Of a DNA stretch of 64,000 nt, positions 10,436 to 39,001 are shown piece by piece (position 1 is the stretch's first letter; each line of letters starts with the position of its first letter). This DNA is from Bacteriovoracales bacterium. GTDB taxonomy: Bacteria > Bdellovibrionota > Bacteriovoracia > Bacteriovoracales > Bacteriovoracaceae. The stretch covers positions 1 to 64,000 of the forward strand of contig JASBRV010000084.1 in the NCBI GenBank assembly GCA_030149295.1, written 5' to 3'. The notes under the pieces were generated by a model. The model had not been told where the DNA came from. It searched no databases and saw nothing but the letters and a program-made list of their open reading frames with translations. A program made the position numbers and the translations under genes.

Positions 10436-11931
10436 TCGAAATCAGGAGTGTTTCCAATAATCGTGAGTTCTTCAAAACTCTTTTGAAGCTCCGTTTGATC
10501 AAAGATACGATCATCAAGAAGATAAAAACCAAAAATAATAGAGCTAAGACTCACAAAACTTGCCATCAATGAGAAGAGGGCTACTTTAGATTTCCCAGTT
10601 TTCTTGTAGCGGTAAACAGGACTTAGTTGATTTTCAAACTTTAAATCGGAAACTACTGTTGAATTAAAAAAGTCTAATTGTACAATTTTCTGGTCGAGAA
10701 GTTTCAAATACTCAAAGGCAGGCTTTACCTCTTCAATTTTTGTATCAATCTTTGCTATTTCTTTTGCGATCTCTTCCCTTTCCGCAATCAGCTTTTCATA
10801 GTCAGCTTGAGCTTTAGCAACTTGTTCCTTAAGGACTTTATGGTTAAACTCAGTAAAGCGGCTCTCCCCATCTTTTTTGAGAATAAAGTTCGTATTACTA
10901 CTAACACTTCTTCCCGCTTGAAATGATTCCTTCAACTGCTTTTTCATTGACCTCAATCGGGACTTCAGTTGATTAACGATAATTTGATCTTGTTTGCTGA
11001 GACTGTCTGATACAGACTTAATCGCAGCAATATCTTGTTCATATTTTTTGATTTTAATTTCTAGGTCTGCTTTTTTTTCAGCCTTAATAATACTATCTGT
11101 TTCGATTTTACCTTTTGTAGCCTTTTTGGTTTCGCTCATTTGAGTTGCCACCATTGCCAAATCTAATTGTAATTTCTGATTAAGCTTACTGTAGTCTGTA
11201 ATTTTAAAACTAAGTTCATCTGCCTTCTGTTGAAGTTCTCTTTTTTGCTCTTTTAATTCCATGAGATTAAAACTATCAATTTTTTCTCTCTTATCTTCAG
11301 CTAGTTCTTTAGAAAGCTTAATCTGCTCTTCAATTTTATGTTTTATAGTAGAAACCCTGTTTTCAACTATTAGCTCAGAAACTTCTTCTAGTAGGACCTT
11401 AGTGGTGAAAGCGTCCTTTGTTGATACCTGAATAAAAAATTTATTGGTGACCACCTTGTCAGGTAAAATAGAAATAAAAGAGAAAATGCGGCCTCTTAAG
11501 GCATTCACTTTACAAGCTTGGTTGGCACCGCAACCTGACAATAAGTCTTCCAGAACGAACTCATTTTTTTCTTGAAGAAGGCCAAAGTTAAGCTGGTGCA
11601 GCTCAGGATGCTTGAGGATATTCTCTGTAAACTCCTGCTGAAAATCCAGAGAATTTGCCATCCCAACAATTTCACTTTCAGAAAGCCCACTGGTTTTTTC
11701 TCCAAGTACAGAAGCAATCGCACTAGTCGTACTATTTAGGTCTTCAGTTAGATTTTTAAAATATTTTCTTCTTTGGAAAATATCACTTTGATTGCTATAG
11801 AAATAAATTGAATACGAAAAAACCAAGAGAGGCACCATTATAGATACCCACTTATAACGTACGATCAATTTCCAAAAAAATGGAAAATCTATGATCGTTG
11901 TTTCATGTAGAATTACATTCAGTTTTTTCAC
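10432..11931 (-). CDS. Wzz-like polysaccharide co-polymerase
   Basis: The 499-aa protein has an N-terminal membrane helix (about residues 28-46), a very long periplasmic region with coiled coil from about 205 to 420 (runs such as E-L-K-E-Q-K-R-E-L-Q-Q-K) and a C-terminal membrane helix near 455-478. This two-helix, coiled-coil layout is that of Wzz/BY-kinase-activator proteins, which set glycan chain length or gate export. It has no fused kinase domain. It starts with GTG, which overlaps the stop of the upstream ATPase-like gene by one base (TAGTG), so the two are coupled. That supports the pairing with the kinase-like proteins. Confidence 0.75.
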   Translation of the reverse strand: MKKLNVILHETTIIDFPFFWKLIVRYKWVSIMVPLLVFSYSIYFYSNQSDIFQRRKYFKNLTEDLNSTTSAIASVLGEKTSGLSESEIVGMANSLDFQQEFTENILKHPELHQLNFGLLQEKNEFVLEDLLSGCGANQACKVNALRGRIFSFISILPDKVVTNKFFIQVSTKDAFTTKVLLEEVSELIVENRVSTIKHKIEEQIKLSKELAEDKREKIDSFNLMELKEQKRELQQKADELSFKITDYSKLNQKLQLDLAMVATQMSETKKATKGKIETDSIIKAEKKADLEIKIKKYEQDIAAIKSVSDSLSKQDQIIVNQLKSRLRSMKKQLKESFQAGRSVSSNTNFILKKDGESRFTEFNHKVLKEQVAKAQADYEKLIAEREEIAKEIAKIDTKIEEVKPAFEYLKLLDQKIVQLDFFNSTVVSDLKFENQLSPVYRYKKTGKSKVALFSLMASFVSLSSIIFGFYLLDDRIFDQTELQKSFEELTIIGNTPDFD

Positions 11932-12704: not shown

Positions 12705-14068
12705 GAGTGCCCTCCTTTTTTCTTAGGAGGTTCACTAAAAAGCAGCCCTTTTATGGGAATCTGGTAGCGGTTAAAATAACTAATTTGTTCATTAATTTCA
12801 GAAATTTTAGAAGTATTCTTACCTACAATAAAAGATACATTATCAAGACTTCTAATGATGGGAAAAAAGAGTTCTTTGTTTGAGTCTAAAATTTCTCTTT
12901 CGGGTAAGTCCCATAAAATTATGTCATACCGACTCATCAAAAAATCTATAAAATCTTCGAAAGTATAGGCTGTTAATTTTCTCTCTATACGTTTTAGTTC
13001 TTGAAATTCAACTGTATCGAAACCATCACCAGCGAAGAAGTTAAATGTCAATTCCTCATCAAAAACATTTTCTTCTTTCTCTTGAAAGTCTTTTCCAATT
13101 TTTTGGTAAAAAGAACCTAAAAGGTCGGATGTGACTACACAGACATTTACATCTTGGTGATAGTTAAAGAAAGAAAGTATGCCCAAAACAGTCTTCTCCC
13201 TTTCGTCGTTAAGTCCCTTTGAAGAAAAACTAAAGGACCTAAGACCAGATTTAAAATCTTTTAGGTAAGAGCTTCCAACTTTATATAATTCAACATGATC
13301 TTTAGCTCGATAGTAATAAGACTGTCCCGCCTTTCCTTTCTTTCTTGTAAAAGTGTGCTTTTGATATTTTAGATTTTTCTCACCACTATCTTTTTTAAGT
13401 TTAAGTAAGGGGCGTTTAGCCTTAATATCCTGAGAGTCTTCAAGGTTGGAAGTCTCCTTAGGTGTAACCCCATTACTAAATTCTCCTTCAGCCTCAGAAT
13501 ATTTCTCTTTTGGGAATGAAAAATTTAAAATATTTTCTTGCTCGTTTACTCTAGGAGAAGATTGACCTCTATCTAGCTTGGACATTGGAGGATTTTGTGA
13601 GGGAGCTTTTCCTAAAAAGTCTTCATTTACAAGGTTTTCCATTTCATCCAAGGAAAATGTTTTGAAAACAATGGAATCTTTTGGATCTTGAAAATCCTCT
13701 TCCTCTAAAAGGCTCAAAAGTTCTTGTTTTTTTTCTTTTGGTTCAAATAACAGGCTGACTCTTGTTGCCTCATCAACGCTAATTTTTTCGACAACAACCT
13801 GTTTAATGTCTTTTGTTTGTTTAATAATTTCTTTAAGTTTTAGCGGATCGATGACATCAATTCCTGAATCCCTAAAAACTTTTACCTGAGTGATGGGTTG
13901 ACCATTTTGAGAAAGCATTCCATCTGGCAATTCGATATTCTTTTCAAAATATTCTGAAGTTAATTTGAATTCAGAACCAAGTGGATAAATAGATCCACGA
14001 GAATCAATTTTATGATTCTCTTCAACGCAGTTTTCATAACCGTCGTCAAAATAGGGTTTCTTTTTCAA
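12701..14068 (-). CDS. BY-kinase/ParA-like ATPase with degenerate P-loop and long N-terminal extension (copy A)
   Basis: The 455-aa protein has a low-complexity, charged N-terminal half (1 to about 225) followed by a domain paralogous to the next gene. Matching segments are Y-Y-Y-R-A-K-D-H-V-E-L-Y-K-V-G, R-S-F-S-F-S-S-K-G, then E-R-E-K-T-V-L-G-I-L-S-F-F in P-loop position and Y-D-I-I-L-W-D-L-P-E as Walker-B-like strand. The glycine before K-T is Glu. The pair looks like a tandem duplication in which both copies lost the same P-loop glycine while keeping Lys-Thr. A 22-bp inverted repeat lies about 65 bp upstream and may be an operator. It is the first gene of a three-gene coupled operon ending in the Wzz-like gene. 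Confidence 0.58.
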   Translation of the reverse strand: MKKKPYFDDGYENCVEENHKIDSRGSIYPLGSEFKLTSEYFEKNIELPDGMLSQNGQPITQVKVFRDSGIDVIDPLKLKEIIKQTKDIKQVVVEKISVDEATRVSLLFEPKEKKQELLSLLEEEDFQDPKDSIVFKTFSLDEMENLVNEDFLGKAPSQNPPMSKLDRGQSSPRVNEQENILNFSFPKEKYSEAEGEFSNGVTPKETSNLEDSQDIKAKRPLLKLKKDSGEKNLKYQKHTFTRKKGKAGQSYYYRAKDHVELYKVGSSYLKDFKSGLRSFSFSSKGLNDEREKTVLGILSFFNYHQDVNVCVVTSDLLGSFYQKIGKDFQEKEENVFDEELTFNFFAGDGFDTVEFQELKRIERKLTAYTFEDFIDFLMSRYDIILWDLPEREILDSNKELFFPIIRSLDNVSFIVGKNTSKISEINEQISYFNRYQIPIKGLLFSEPPKKKGGHS

Positions 14069-25268: not shown

Positions 25269-25333
25269 AGGACCTTTCAGGTGCCATAATGCACTAGGTC
25301 TATTTAAACACCATCAGATTATGCCTATTATTA

Positions 25334-25347
25334 ATAACTTAAGTTAT
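25334..25347. repeat. 14-bp palindrome upstream of a sigma-54-type box
   Basis: ATAACTTAAGTTAT is a perfect palindrome ending 7 bp before the -24/-12 box at 25355. It could be a regulator site for that promoter. Confidence 0.4.
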
Positions 25348-25354
25348 CTCAAAA

Positions 25355-25371
25355 TTGGCATGGGCCTTGTA
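25355..25371 (+). promoter_or_regulatory. Sigma-54-type promoter before the hairpin leader
   Basis: The site TTGGCATGGGCCTTGTA fits TTGGCAYGRNNNTTGCW except that GC at -12 is GT. GG and GT are 10 bp apart. The predicted start, about 25381, lies 9 nt before the first hairpin of the leader. Confidence 0.6.
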
Positions 25372-25389
25372 TCTATAGGGGCAACAAAA

Positions 25390-25453
25390 GACCAAAGGGA
25401 TGTTGGTCACGGATTTTACCAGGATGGTAGTGAAAGAGTGCCTAGGAGGGCAC
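25390..25453 (+). ncRNA. Three consecutive GGA-loop hairpins: candidate CsrA/RsmA-binding leader or sRNA
   Basis: Hairpin 1 pairs GACCAA (25390-25395) with TTGGTC (25403-25408) and has loop AGGGATG. Hairpin 2 pairs TACC (25417-25420) with GGTA (25426-25429), plus a flanking U-G pair, and has loop AGGAT. Hairpin 3 pairs GTGCC (25438-25442) with GGCAC (25449-25453) and has loop TAGGAG. A further AGAGGA forms the ribosome binding site of the next gene. GGA exposed in short-stem loops is the known binding element of CsrA/RsmA. No terminator follows, so this looks like the 5' leader of the secreted-protein gene at 25474 and not a free sRNA. CsrA binding itself is inference. Confidence 0.55.
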
Positions 25454-25473
25454 CTTTAGGAAGAGAGGAAACT

Positions 25474-25800
25474 ATGAACCTAGTAAAAGCCACAATCATT
25501 CTTACTTGTATCTTCATAGGGCAAAGCGCCCTTTCAATGGACATGATCAGACTTCAGGTAGGGGAAGTTAACCCCAATATCCCTGTAGAAAAAGTTGAAA
25601 CTTACTATGGTGAAGTCTTAAAAATAGGAGACATGAAAGGATTCTCAAAGAGAGAGCCCTTAAAAAGTGTTATCCATAGTAGGCAAATTGAAATGAAAAA
25701 TGGAAATATCTACTACCCTGAGGAAGTAGAATACGTTATCGAAAGTGTGGCCAGTGGACGCTTTGGAGCAAACCAAAAAGCCCCACACACCCCTGATTAA
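25474..25800 (+). CDS. Small secreted protein of unknown function
   Basis: I place the start at ATG 25474 (108 aa) because AGAGAGGA precedes it and it begins with a signal peptide, M-N-L-V-K-A-T-I-I-L-T-C-I-F-I-G, ending near A-L-S-M-D. The frame is open back to 25321, but that part is the structured RNA leader and gives an unlikely protein sequence. The mature 85 residues contain no cysteine and no motif I recognise. The gene sits behind a sigma-54-like promoter and three GGA hairpins, so its translation may be tightly controlled. Its stop interlocks with the MscS stop in a 4-bp TTAA overlap. Confidence 0.7.
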   Translation: MNLVKATIILTCIFIGQSALSMDMIRLQVGEVNPNIPVEKVETYYGEVLKIGDMKGFSKREPLKSVIHSRQIEMKNGNIYYPEEVEYVIESVASGRFGANQKAPHTPD

Positions 25801-27463: not shown

Positions 27464-27498
27464 GTAAAAATTTCTGCTTTGCACAATTGTGAACTGTT

Positions 27499-27515
27499 TT
27501 GGCATAGAGTTTGGA
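27499..27515 (+). promoter_or_regulatory. Sigma-54-like promoter before the 1258-aa protein gene
   Basis: TTGGCATAGAGTTTGGA matches TTGGCAYGRNNNTTGCW with two mismatches (G to A at the eighth base, GC to GG at -12). The GG-N10-G spacing is kept. The predicted leader of about 120 nt can form a stem with arms ATACATT (27544-27550) and AATGTAT (27581-27587) enclosing two GGA triplets, and a second stem at 27604-27622. Confidence 0.4.
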
Positions 27516-27644
27516 ATAGAACCAAGTAGAACAACGCAAACCTATACATTGGACGTATTTTGGAGCCGTTTCAACCCTGAAATGTATCCAAAAAACGTTC
27601 TACCGGTGTCAACCAGGCACCGTTCGGGGAATTGAGGAGAAACC

Positions 27645-30600
27645 ATGAAGAAGATGACACCATTAATGTTAGCTACCATGATGCTTGCACCAGCGATCTT
27701 AATTGATCAGGCAAAAGCAAGAACTGGAGCCGATCGTAGAGAAGAAGAAAGAAGGCAAAGGGAGGGTCGCGGTGATAATCGAAGACCTGGAAGAGATGTT
27801 GATCTCCCATTTGGCCAAAGAGGAAACCTCGTTGGTGAAAGAGATTTCGGAGATTGGGATCGCAGCTACATTGGTGTAAGAAGCTTTAAACTCATTGACG
27901 ACCCCGAGTTCAATAGAATTTCAAGCGACGCCACCACAAAAATTAAAGAACTTCTTGGTGCGACAAAAAGACTTGATGACAAAGAAAAAGTTGTCACGGC
28001 CACTAAAAAGAAAGTCACAGATATAGAAAAAGAAATTGGTAAACTCTCTCAAGAAATTGTTGAGGCCATAGGCACGAAAACAAAAACAGAAGCCCAGCTT
28101 CCAAGCTTAACTAATCAAGTCACCAATGCCACTAATCAAAAGAACCTGGCCCAAAATACTTTTGATTCGACTAAAGAGGATCTTGATGCCGTTAATGCGG
28201 CCATCGAGACAGCAGAAGGTAACTTAGAAACAGTTAAGGCCGAATGTCAGGAAGCTCCTGCTGATAATTGTGAGAGAAGAATTAATAGAGCCACTAATAG
28301 ACTCAATAACGCCAAAGCGAAAAAACCTCAGGCGCAAACTCTCTTTAATACCGCCAAAGGAAATTTACAAAGAGCGACCAAGAACTTAGAGGCAAGAGAG
28401 AAGAAATTAGCTGATGCTAAGGCCCTTATCGCAAAAATAACATCAGAAAATGCACAAAGATCAACAAAGATTGACTCTCAAAAAGGTAAGCTTGCTAGCG
28501 CAAAAGTAGCCCAGCAAAAGGCCATCAATGAACTTGAGCCCATTAAGAAGGCCTACATAAGAACTCTTATGCAAAGAAACGATGCCGTTGCTCGTAAGAA
28601 CGTGATGAAAGGAAGACTGATAGAAGAAATCATGAAGCTCAATCGCCGAGGAGGAATTGTTGGCGAGGAAGCAGGAAGTATTGACGGTGATTACTACGCC
28701 GAGTCTATTGGTGTCTCTGAAGGGATGCGTGATGGCGATGCTGAAGGGACAAGAACCGGTACCAGAGATGGACAAAACTCTGCCTATAATAGAGGCCTTG
28801 GCCAGGGTGAGATTGAAGGAAGGGCCGATGCTGAAACCAGAGGTTTGGCAGATGGAACTAAACTTGGTACCGATCAAGCAAATACACAGGCAGGAAGTGA
28901 TCAAGGAACAATTGATGGCACCCAAAACGCCAGAAATTCAAATGCTGCCGAAGTCGGCAGCAATCAAGGAGCCAGCGCTGGACTTGATCGTGCCGTTCGT
29001 GAGGGTAAATCAGCCGGTAACGCTCTAGGTGAGCGACAGGCCATCCAATTTCATGAGACAAAAAGCCTCAATGATCAAAATGCCAATGGAAACTTCGCTG
29101 GCGCCTTCGCGGCTCAAGTACCAAGTTATCCTGGCTTTGATTGTATTCAGGTAGGAAGTAGACGCTATTATCGTGATGATTATGGTTGGAGAGGAAATCG
29201 TCGCTACACCATTGATCACAGAGCTTGTCCTAATTTTAGGCCAGCAAAGCACTCGGAATATGCAAGAACCAACAGACCTATCCTTAAAGAAGCTTTTCTT
29301 GATGGATACCTTAGAGGCTATAGACTTAATCGTCGCGGCCAATTTGTTGAAGCAATTGATCGCTATTACCTCAATGCCTATGACAACTCTCGTGATGCTG
29401 CATACGCAGAATTCTCAAGTCGCAGTTACCCTGAGTACAGAGAAAGAGGCCGTGGTGAAGGCTTTCAAACTGCTTTTAACGCGCGCTACCCTGTCGTCAA
29501 AGAAGAGGCAAGAGTTGAGGCCTACGCCCAAACAATCAATAACCCCAATAGGGATTCTTCACAGTACCGTGACACGTATGCCAGAGTTCAAAGATCAACC
29601 TACAACCGTGTCTATGAACAAATTCGCTCGGCCAATTTTAATCGTGTTGAAGGTGAAACTTTCGCTAATAATATTGAAGAGCAAACAGAGATTTTTAGAA
29701 AAGCTCGTTACGCTGCTGTCGATGCCATTTACAAAAACCATCCTGTAATGAAGTTTGTCTCCTCCTCTATTCACGATGGCGGAATTAATGGAGTCGCCAA
29801 AAATGACGGAGTTTTCCAACCAGGTGAGACGACTCTTCATAATGTGACCCTTATTAACTACGGTGATAAGCCCGCAACAAATGTGATTGTAACAAATGAA
29901 GAGGGAACAAAGATTAAGCTTCCTGCTATTGCTGGCAAATCTAAGGTGACAATTAAAGGGGCAGCGAAAGGATCTGTACCTTCACGTACTCGTATAGGAA
30001 CTCGCCATGAGTCAACCCTTACCGTCTTCTCACCTCTTAGTGCAGAAGCGACAATTCAAGGGCGTCACTATTACGCGAGCTCTACAGGGCGTATGAATCG
30101 TGGTGATAAAAAGAACCAAACGATTCAATACCCTCTTAGTCTTTCTCATTTGAAAACTGAAGGTCAACTTCTTATCAATGAAACCAGCACACTTAAAGTT
30201 GTAGCTAGTAACAACTCTAAAAGAAAATACACTGGTAACCTTAAAATTGAATTGAGTGTTGACTCTCAAACGGGGATTATTACTAGAGAATTTACTGACC
30301 TCAAGGAACTCTCTGGTTCTAAGACCCTTGATAGCGCAAGAGTGCTTGTGGCCAGTGAAAGAGATGTCTACACTCCCCTGACTTTTAGCGCTAAAATCAC
30401 TAAGCAAGGTGTTACCCTAGGAACTTTAAGCTCAGCTTTAACAACTATGGCAAAAGCGCCTTATAGTGAAAAGTCAGGAAAGCCAGTTTTTGTTGCCGAT
30501 TCCTCTAAAAATGCAAGGGATCTCATGCAGGCCATTAGACAAGTTGGAGGTCTCTCAAAAGCTTCGGTCATTGACCTCTCTCTTGGTCGTCTTAACAGAG

Positions 30601-38744: not shown

Positions 38745-38803
38745 TAAAACGTCACCAGTATCAGTTCCTACCACCCTAAGTCATTAAATTTACATTATAT
38801 TCC

Positions 38804-38820
38804 TTGGCATGGACATTGCT
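38804..38820 (+). promoter_or_regulatory. Sigma-54 promoter, perfect consensus match
   Basis: TTGGCATGGACATTGCT fits every position of TTGGCAYGRNNNTTGCW. The predicted start is near 38831, giving a 27-nt leader with AAGGAG before the GTG at 38858. Confidence 0.8.
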
Positions 38821-38857
38821 CATTAAAACCTAAGCTTCATGTCAAAGGAGAGGCAAA

Positions 38858-39001
38858 GTGAAAACTTATGAAAACAAAAGATTAAAAAAAGCGACAACTC
38901 AATCAAGGGTCGTTCAAAGAAATTTAATTTTAAAGGGCGTCATTTTAGCCTATTCCCATTTTCTCTTACTCGTTACGGCCTTGGCCATTTGGGGAGATTA
39001 A
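38858..39001 (+). CDS. Small single-helix membrane protein (47 aa)
   Basis: This short gene starts with GTG behind AAGGAG (7-nt spacing) and ends at TAA 38999-39001. The N-terminal half is basic (K-R-L-K-K-A-T-T-Q-S-R), the C-terminal half is one hydrophobic helix (V-I-L-A-Y-S-H-F-L-L-L-V-T-A-L-A-I-W) and the protein ends G-D. It should insert with the basic end inside. A perfect sigma-54 box lies 38 bp upstream of the start. The function is unknown; small membrane proteins of this type often modulate larger complexes. The TPR gene follows 72 bp later. Confidence 0.7.
   Translation: MKTYENKRLKKATTQSRVVQRNLILKGVILAYSHFLLLVTALAIWGD

Follow-up and report, generated by a model that had tools for sequence, protein, structure and literature searches.

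Promoter, leader and gene at the P0001 locus

The window, the whole 64,000-nt stretch of DNA that was analysed, is part of contig 125 of a 4.0-Mb draft genome and carries on its plus strand, at 25474-25800, a gene for a 108-aa protein (P0001) with a hydrophobic N-terminus, a putative exported protein from a family of unknown function. The locus is flanked upstream by genes for a DUF255/thioredoxin-domain protein and a family III CoA-transferase, and downstream by a convergent MscS-type gene. A longer frame at 25321-25800 (159 aa) was rejected as the gene because its start lies upstream of the promoter box described below, so that the predicted transcript would lack its first codons. With P0001 as the sole query, 17 of 98 genomes gave a homologue, while a 17-row profile identified homologues in 46 of 129 Bacteriovoracaceae genomes from 20 of 48 genera. 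Among 368 genomes of the phylum 47 were matched, one of them outside the family; this last match is weak, falls within a 940-aa frame and was taken as chance. No Pfam family scored over the cut-off for P0001 (SepA, at E 0.25, fell below it and was discarded), no PHROGs family matched at E 0.1, and four NCBIfam families were set aside as each matched only one of 17 members. An AlphaFold model generated from 8 sequences had a pLDDT of 77.3, and its comparison with PDB folds gave no confident match (best E 0.83, not used).

Upstream of the gene, the plus strand carries a sigma-54-type -24/-12 promoter element at 25355-25371 (TTGGCATGGGCCTTGTA), in which GG and GT stand ten bases apart, the exact sigma-54 spacing. 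The single departure from the consensus noted in the first-pass annotation proved to be GT for GC. The position of this box predicts a transcript start at about 25381 and hence an untranslated leader RNA of 93 nt (25381-25473, plus strand) containing six GGAs. The three adjacent GGA-looped hairpins originally described could be read in this leader, all with perfect stems: hairpin 1 at 25390-25408 (GACCAA[AGGGATG]TTGGTC, 6 pairs), hairpin 2 at 25417-25429 (TACC[AGGAT]GGTA) and hairpin 3 at 25438-25453 (GTGCC[TAGGAG]GGCAC). A further GGA at 25411 separates hairpins 1 and 2, and the purine-rich ribosome-binding stretch at 25458-25469, previously credited with one GGA, has two (25459 and 25467) ahead of the ATG at 25474. 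Under a simple rule the leader contains 4 GGA-loop hairpins versus 0.75 in shuffled sequences, and none of 200 shuffles reached 4. Folding of 110 nt (25381-25490) gave a z-score of -2.75, with 5 of 200 shuffles folding equally well, and replaced hairpin 2 by pairing with the start region; folded only to the ATG, the leader formed hairpins at all three places. The window had no Rfam match at the gathering score, nor did 25300-25560 at E 10.

Conservation of the promoter and the first hairpin

Conservation of the leader was assessed in 47 of the 48 family matches, one of the two places that score equally in G127 being read. Of these 47 loci, 45, from 19 genera, have a sigma-54-type box at the correct spacing, 59-131 bases upstream of the start codon, with start codons chosen from the frames. 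A pattern located forty of the boxes; the other five (L012, L043, L050, L055 and L065), each with one departure, were placed by eye. The two loci where no box was seen, L068 and L069, are among the weakest protein matches. All 45 boxes have TG in the -12 element and 23 of them have the TTGTA state, which argues that the GT-for-GC departure at 25355-25371 is no local defect.

The hairpins of these 45 leaders differ in how widely they are kept. Hairpin 1 is the only one that is general among relatives. Under a content-blind rule hairpin 2 is GGA-looped in three of the six same-genus loci (L002, L005 and L008), and hairpin 3 has a loop GGA in two of them (L002 and L003), with a stem lacking the loop GGA at its place in L005, L006 and L008 and no stem in L011. 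Some relatives have a leader with a single GGA hairpin, three leaders of genus 24 measure just about 35 nt, no GGA hairpin was found in the L061 leader, and L013 and L015 have weak ones only.

As GGA is common near ribosome-binding sites, GGA-rich gene starts and short stems might be mistaken for a pattern, and several controls bear on this. The 45 leaders contain 79 GGA-loop hairpins versus 26.6 ± 4.1 (maximum 40) in 200 dinucleotide shuffles. In 84% of the 45 leaders the sequences flanking the first GGA pair over at least 5 bases, versus a mean of 27% and a maximum of 45% when 3' arms were exchanged between genera in 500 rounds. When the best hairpin between +1 and +48 was picked without regard to its content, one was present in 40 leaders and had GGA in its loop in 36 of these, versus 7.6 expected, across 14 of 17 genera. 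With the last 14 bases of each leader removed, a content-blind rule found no hairpin in six leaders, while the loop held GGA in 36 of 39 first hairpins (6.4 expected) and in 21 of 34 later hairpins (5.9 expected). Among 102 other gene starts in the fetched loci, 66 had a hairpin and only 6 of these 66 had GGA in it. A chance origin is thus very improbable, and the relatives settle that the sequence pattern is beyond chance: because it is conserved in them, we regard the pattern at 25355-25474 as real.

Covariation of hairpin 1 was examined in 36 of the 45 leaders, aligned with MAFFT; the other nine had odd spacing or short leaders or were near-duplicates. Two-sided changes were found at all eight aligned pairs, amounting to 68 cells versus 32.3 ± 4.8 when shuffled, a count that used the structure named from hairpin 1 itself, with controls, and the named register outscores every slid register. 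Against this, only 62% of the hairpin 1 cells pair in the alignment, and RNAalifold predicted zero pairs on it. All these counts are inflated by kinship, sequences within a genus not being independent. The expectation that stems would covary and loop GGAs persist across relatives therefore holds for hairpin 1 and does not extend generally to hairpins 2 and 3.

Further sigma-54-type leaders with GGA hairpins

A covariance model of the box and hairpin 1, run on the same genome (G000), gave its best score, 44.6 bits, to the P0001 leader. Next, with 42.2 bits, came a contig 57 site with the hairpin TGTTAAATAGGAAGTTTAACA, which precedes a subtilase (Peptidase_S8) gene on the minus strand (G000:C57:14467-16030; L127 / L155). 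Reading the 16 closest homologues of this subtilase, its own copy included, revealed a box in 15, all but L160; ten of these boxes matched the pattern, and those of L161, L164, L165, L168 and L169 were recognised by eye. A stem of at least 5 pairs is present in 13 of the 15 boxed leaders, with a loop GGA in 12 of these 13 versus 1.3 expected, although two of the 12 GGA hairpins (L166 and L170) are weak. The arm-swap control separates the subtilase set less sharply, at 80% of 15 leaders versus 31%, with a maximum of 69%.

The two promoter sets also have an upstream element in common. In 23 of the 45 P0001-type leaders TGACAC/GTGTCA occurs no more than 160 bases upstream of the box (2.9 in shuffled sequences, maximum 8), and 8 of the 15 subtilase promoters have it too (1.0, maximum 4), a recurrence that suggests one sigma-54 activator common to both. 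No exact copy was found within 157 bases of the box at 25355 or at the genome's own subtilase promoter. The sequence GGTGCCATAATGCACTAGG at 25280-25298, to which no strand is assigned, bears a weak likeness by eye to the element and is a possible divergent activator (enhancer) site.

A relaxed search of G000 for the box found 32 places, versus 5 for the reversed pattern. GGA hairpins by our rule follow the boxes of the P0001 leader, the subtilase, contigs 106 and 134, and contig 128, and a box on contig 41 is followed by a four-pair GGA hairpin that falls below the rule. An internal contrast is given by nine other boxes, which by eye stand ahead of ORFs that start like signal peptides or lipoproteins and which lack a GGA hairpin under the rule. 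The sites on contigs 106 and 134 seem to be a single gene present at the ends of two contigs. Its product is an 82-aa exported-type protein (G000:C106, about 13480-13870, minus strand, also at the end of C134; L204 / L213), and it stands behind a box and a 113-nt leader with seven GGAs and two GGA hairpins. Homologues of this protein occur in 6 of 59 genomes searched, and the leader comparison, which covered five of these six (G001 left out), found the box and GGA hairpins in all five, its own genome and four others. On contig 128, a box at 10522-10538 (minus strand) precedes a candidate sigma-54 noncoding RNA of about 95 nt (L211), for which no fitting ORF was found on its strand. Its GGA elements span roughly +13 to +39, and a strong hairpin with a U-rich end follows at +63 to +92. 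This last hairpin may be the terminator of a convergent gene; a terminator scan did not list it.

Several other sites came to light. In G114 (L114; G114:C1:372145-372206 and downstream) a DksA/TraR zinc-finger gene is preceded by a sigma-54-type box and has, in its leader, two perfect GGA hairpins, and in G048 (L113; G048:C63:5151-5211, minus strand) a box and GGA hairpin lie 5' of a 112-aa exported-type protein that was missed by the P0001 profile and seems distantly related to P0001. Within the window itself, weaker sigma-54-type sites lie at 38803-38864 (22.7 bits) and at 27498-27563 (16.2 bits), the latter 5' of a 1258-aa ORF at 27645 that matches no Pfam family at E 0.001. By eye, many boxes in G000 stand ahead of short leaders of exported or lipoprotein-like ORFs, from which sigma-54 may largely serve exported proteins in this genome.

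Leader loops and the CsrA consensus

A loop profile was compiled from 68 GGA loops of the P0001-type and subtilase leaders, with GGA in the loop as the sole criterion. A precedes GGA in 56 loops and A or U follows it in 56, and the next two positions are G in 43 and U in 43, giving the consensus AGGA(A/U)GU. This is close to the published CsrA ligand, for which SELEX gave RUACARGGAUGU and the CsrB repeat is CAGGA(U/A/C)G (PMC7652899), although part of the profiled positions sit in stems and are also constrained by pairing. SELEX preferred stems of at most 4 pairs and an upstream ACA (PMC7652899), whereas the hairpin 1 stem has 6 pairs at the locus and 5-11 in relatives and the upstream ACA is not kept. 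These longer stems would suit a different binding protein, or hairpins that act as 5' stabilisers with an incidental CsrA-like GGA. We judge this improbable, as the loop GGA is kept while the stems change and the positions after GGA also match the CsrA consensus, and we infer that CsrA would be the ligand of the leader.

The genome encodes the regulators that CsrA control of a sigma-54 transcript presupposes. The csrA gene, whose absence the first-pass annotation would have taken as a refutation, has one match (E 1.2e-25), with a fliW gene 80 bases 3' of it, and rpoN is represented by one Sigma54_DBD match (E 9.7e-66). As csrA is matched in 119 of the 129 family genomes, its presence discriminates little; no match was found in 4 of the 45 leader-bearing genomes, G039, G056, G118 and G127, which are drafts of 100, 74, 83 and 56% completeness, respectively.

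A proposed double gate on exported proteins

We consider it probable that CsrA acts in cis to repress translation of a small set of exported proteins transcribed from sigma-54 promoters, with FliW as its likely antagonist. An enhancer-binding activator would presumably turn on the sigma-54 promoter to yield a short mRNA, the leader of which would present one or more GGA-loop hairpins together with the GGAs of the ribosome-binding stretch. A CsrA dimer would attach to a hairpin and reach across to the ribosome-binding site, blocking translation of the putative exported protein until CsrA is removed, most likely by the FliW encoded beside csrA. Expression would thereby pass a double gate, sigma-54 for transcription and CsrA for translation, and as at least two other exported-protein genes in the genome appear to carry the same gate, the P0001 leader would be one member of a small regulon. 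In this scheme we infer the direction of repression, the role of FliW, the activator, the binding of CsrA and the start site.

The initial reading had left a choice between a CsrA-controlled leader and a decoy RNA. The GGAs in the ribosome-binding stretch and the conserved downstream ORF favour cis control, with titration as a possible though unlikely role. As a decoy or dual-function RNA, an abundant sigma-54 transcript would titrate CsrA through its GGA array and the small protein would be a second product, as the multiple GGA hairpins per RNA, the seven-GGA leader of the 82-aa protein gene and the candidate ORF-less RNA on contig 128 might indicate, and for which the Campylobacter jejuni flaA leader offers a precedent (PMC4894983). 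Against this, homologues of the downstream protein occur in 46 of 129 genomes, some leaders have a single GGA hairpin, and fliW is present as an antagonist. By extension, the sigma-54 GGA-array mRNAs of P0001, the subtilase and the 82-aa protein, perhaps with the contig 128 sRNA, might form a CsrA-titrating circuit in predatory-type bacteria, a prospect that we regard as doubtful to the same degree. Were it correct, switching on the sigma-54 activator would flood the cell with CsrA ligands and flip CsrA-controlled traits, filling, alongside FliW, the role of CsrB/RsmZ in Gammaproteobacteria, and this would be a more striking outcome than cis repression.

If cis repression by CsrA is correct, two global regulators, sigma-54 and CsrA, would co-gate exported proteins, a subtilase among them, in the Bacteriovoracaceae, a family with predators among its members. 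Direct binding and fusion tests can now be made on three leaders whose loops are exactly defined. According to a review, joint action of FliW and sRNAs on CsrA is undetermined in any species (PMC7652899), a question that a sigma-54/CsrA/FliW leader system could answer. Among the open-licence papers searched, titles and abstract openings yielded no CsrA target in this bacterial group.

Comparison with known systems

The RNA family described here has no Rfam counterpart at the thresholds given above, while the mechanism proposed for it is of a known kind, represented by the C. jejuni flaA and Escherichia coli glgC leaders. The merRNA of the predator Bdellovibrio has likewise been proposed as an RNA reservoir, but it holds a c-di-GMP riboswitch, and the text describing it makes no mention of CsrA (PMC3627812). 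Decoy sRNAs of the CsrB/RsmZ type have AGGA(U/A)G repeats in hairpin loops (PMC7652899, PMC4894983), a feature that the P0001 leader resembles. Unlike these, the P0001 RNA leads a conserved coding gene, the 108-aa ORF, and matches no Rfam decoy family, and on both counts it departs from a noncoding sRNA of the CsrB/Rsm type.

The glgC leader of E. coli combines an upstream GGA hairpin with a site at the Shine-Dalgarno sequence, which are bridged by one CsrA dimer in glgC (PMC7652899), and the P0001 leader has a similar layout. The two differ in gene, host and promoter, and binding has been demonstrated for glgC (PMC7652899) and is predicted for the P0001 leader. Close in kind is the flaA leader of C. 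jejuni (PMC4894983). The earlier view that no leader of this arrangement was known stands for the exact combination, which is absent from Rfam, and has to be relaxed for the general type. The flaA leader is also short, has GGA in hairpin loops with compensatory stem changes and a GGA over the ribosome-binding site, and occurs in a genome with csrA and fliW; CsrA represses it, the leader also titrates CsrA, FliW is the main antagonist, and many CsrA targets are RpoN- or FliA-dependent (PMC4894983). Whereas flaA encodes a sigma-28-dependent flagellin and has two stem-loops in 45 nt (PMC4894983), the P0001 leader has a sigma-54-type promoter, a predicted length of 93 nt and a putative exported product of unknown function.
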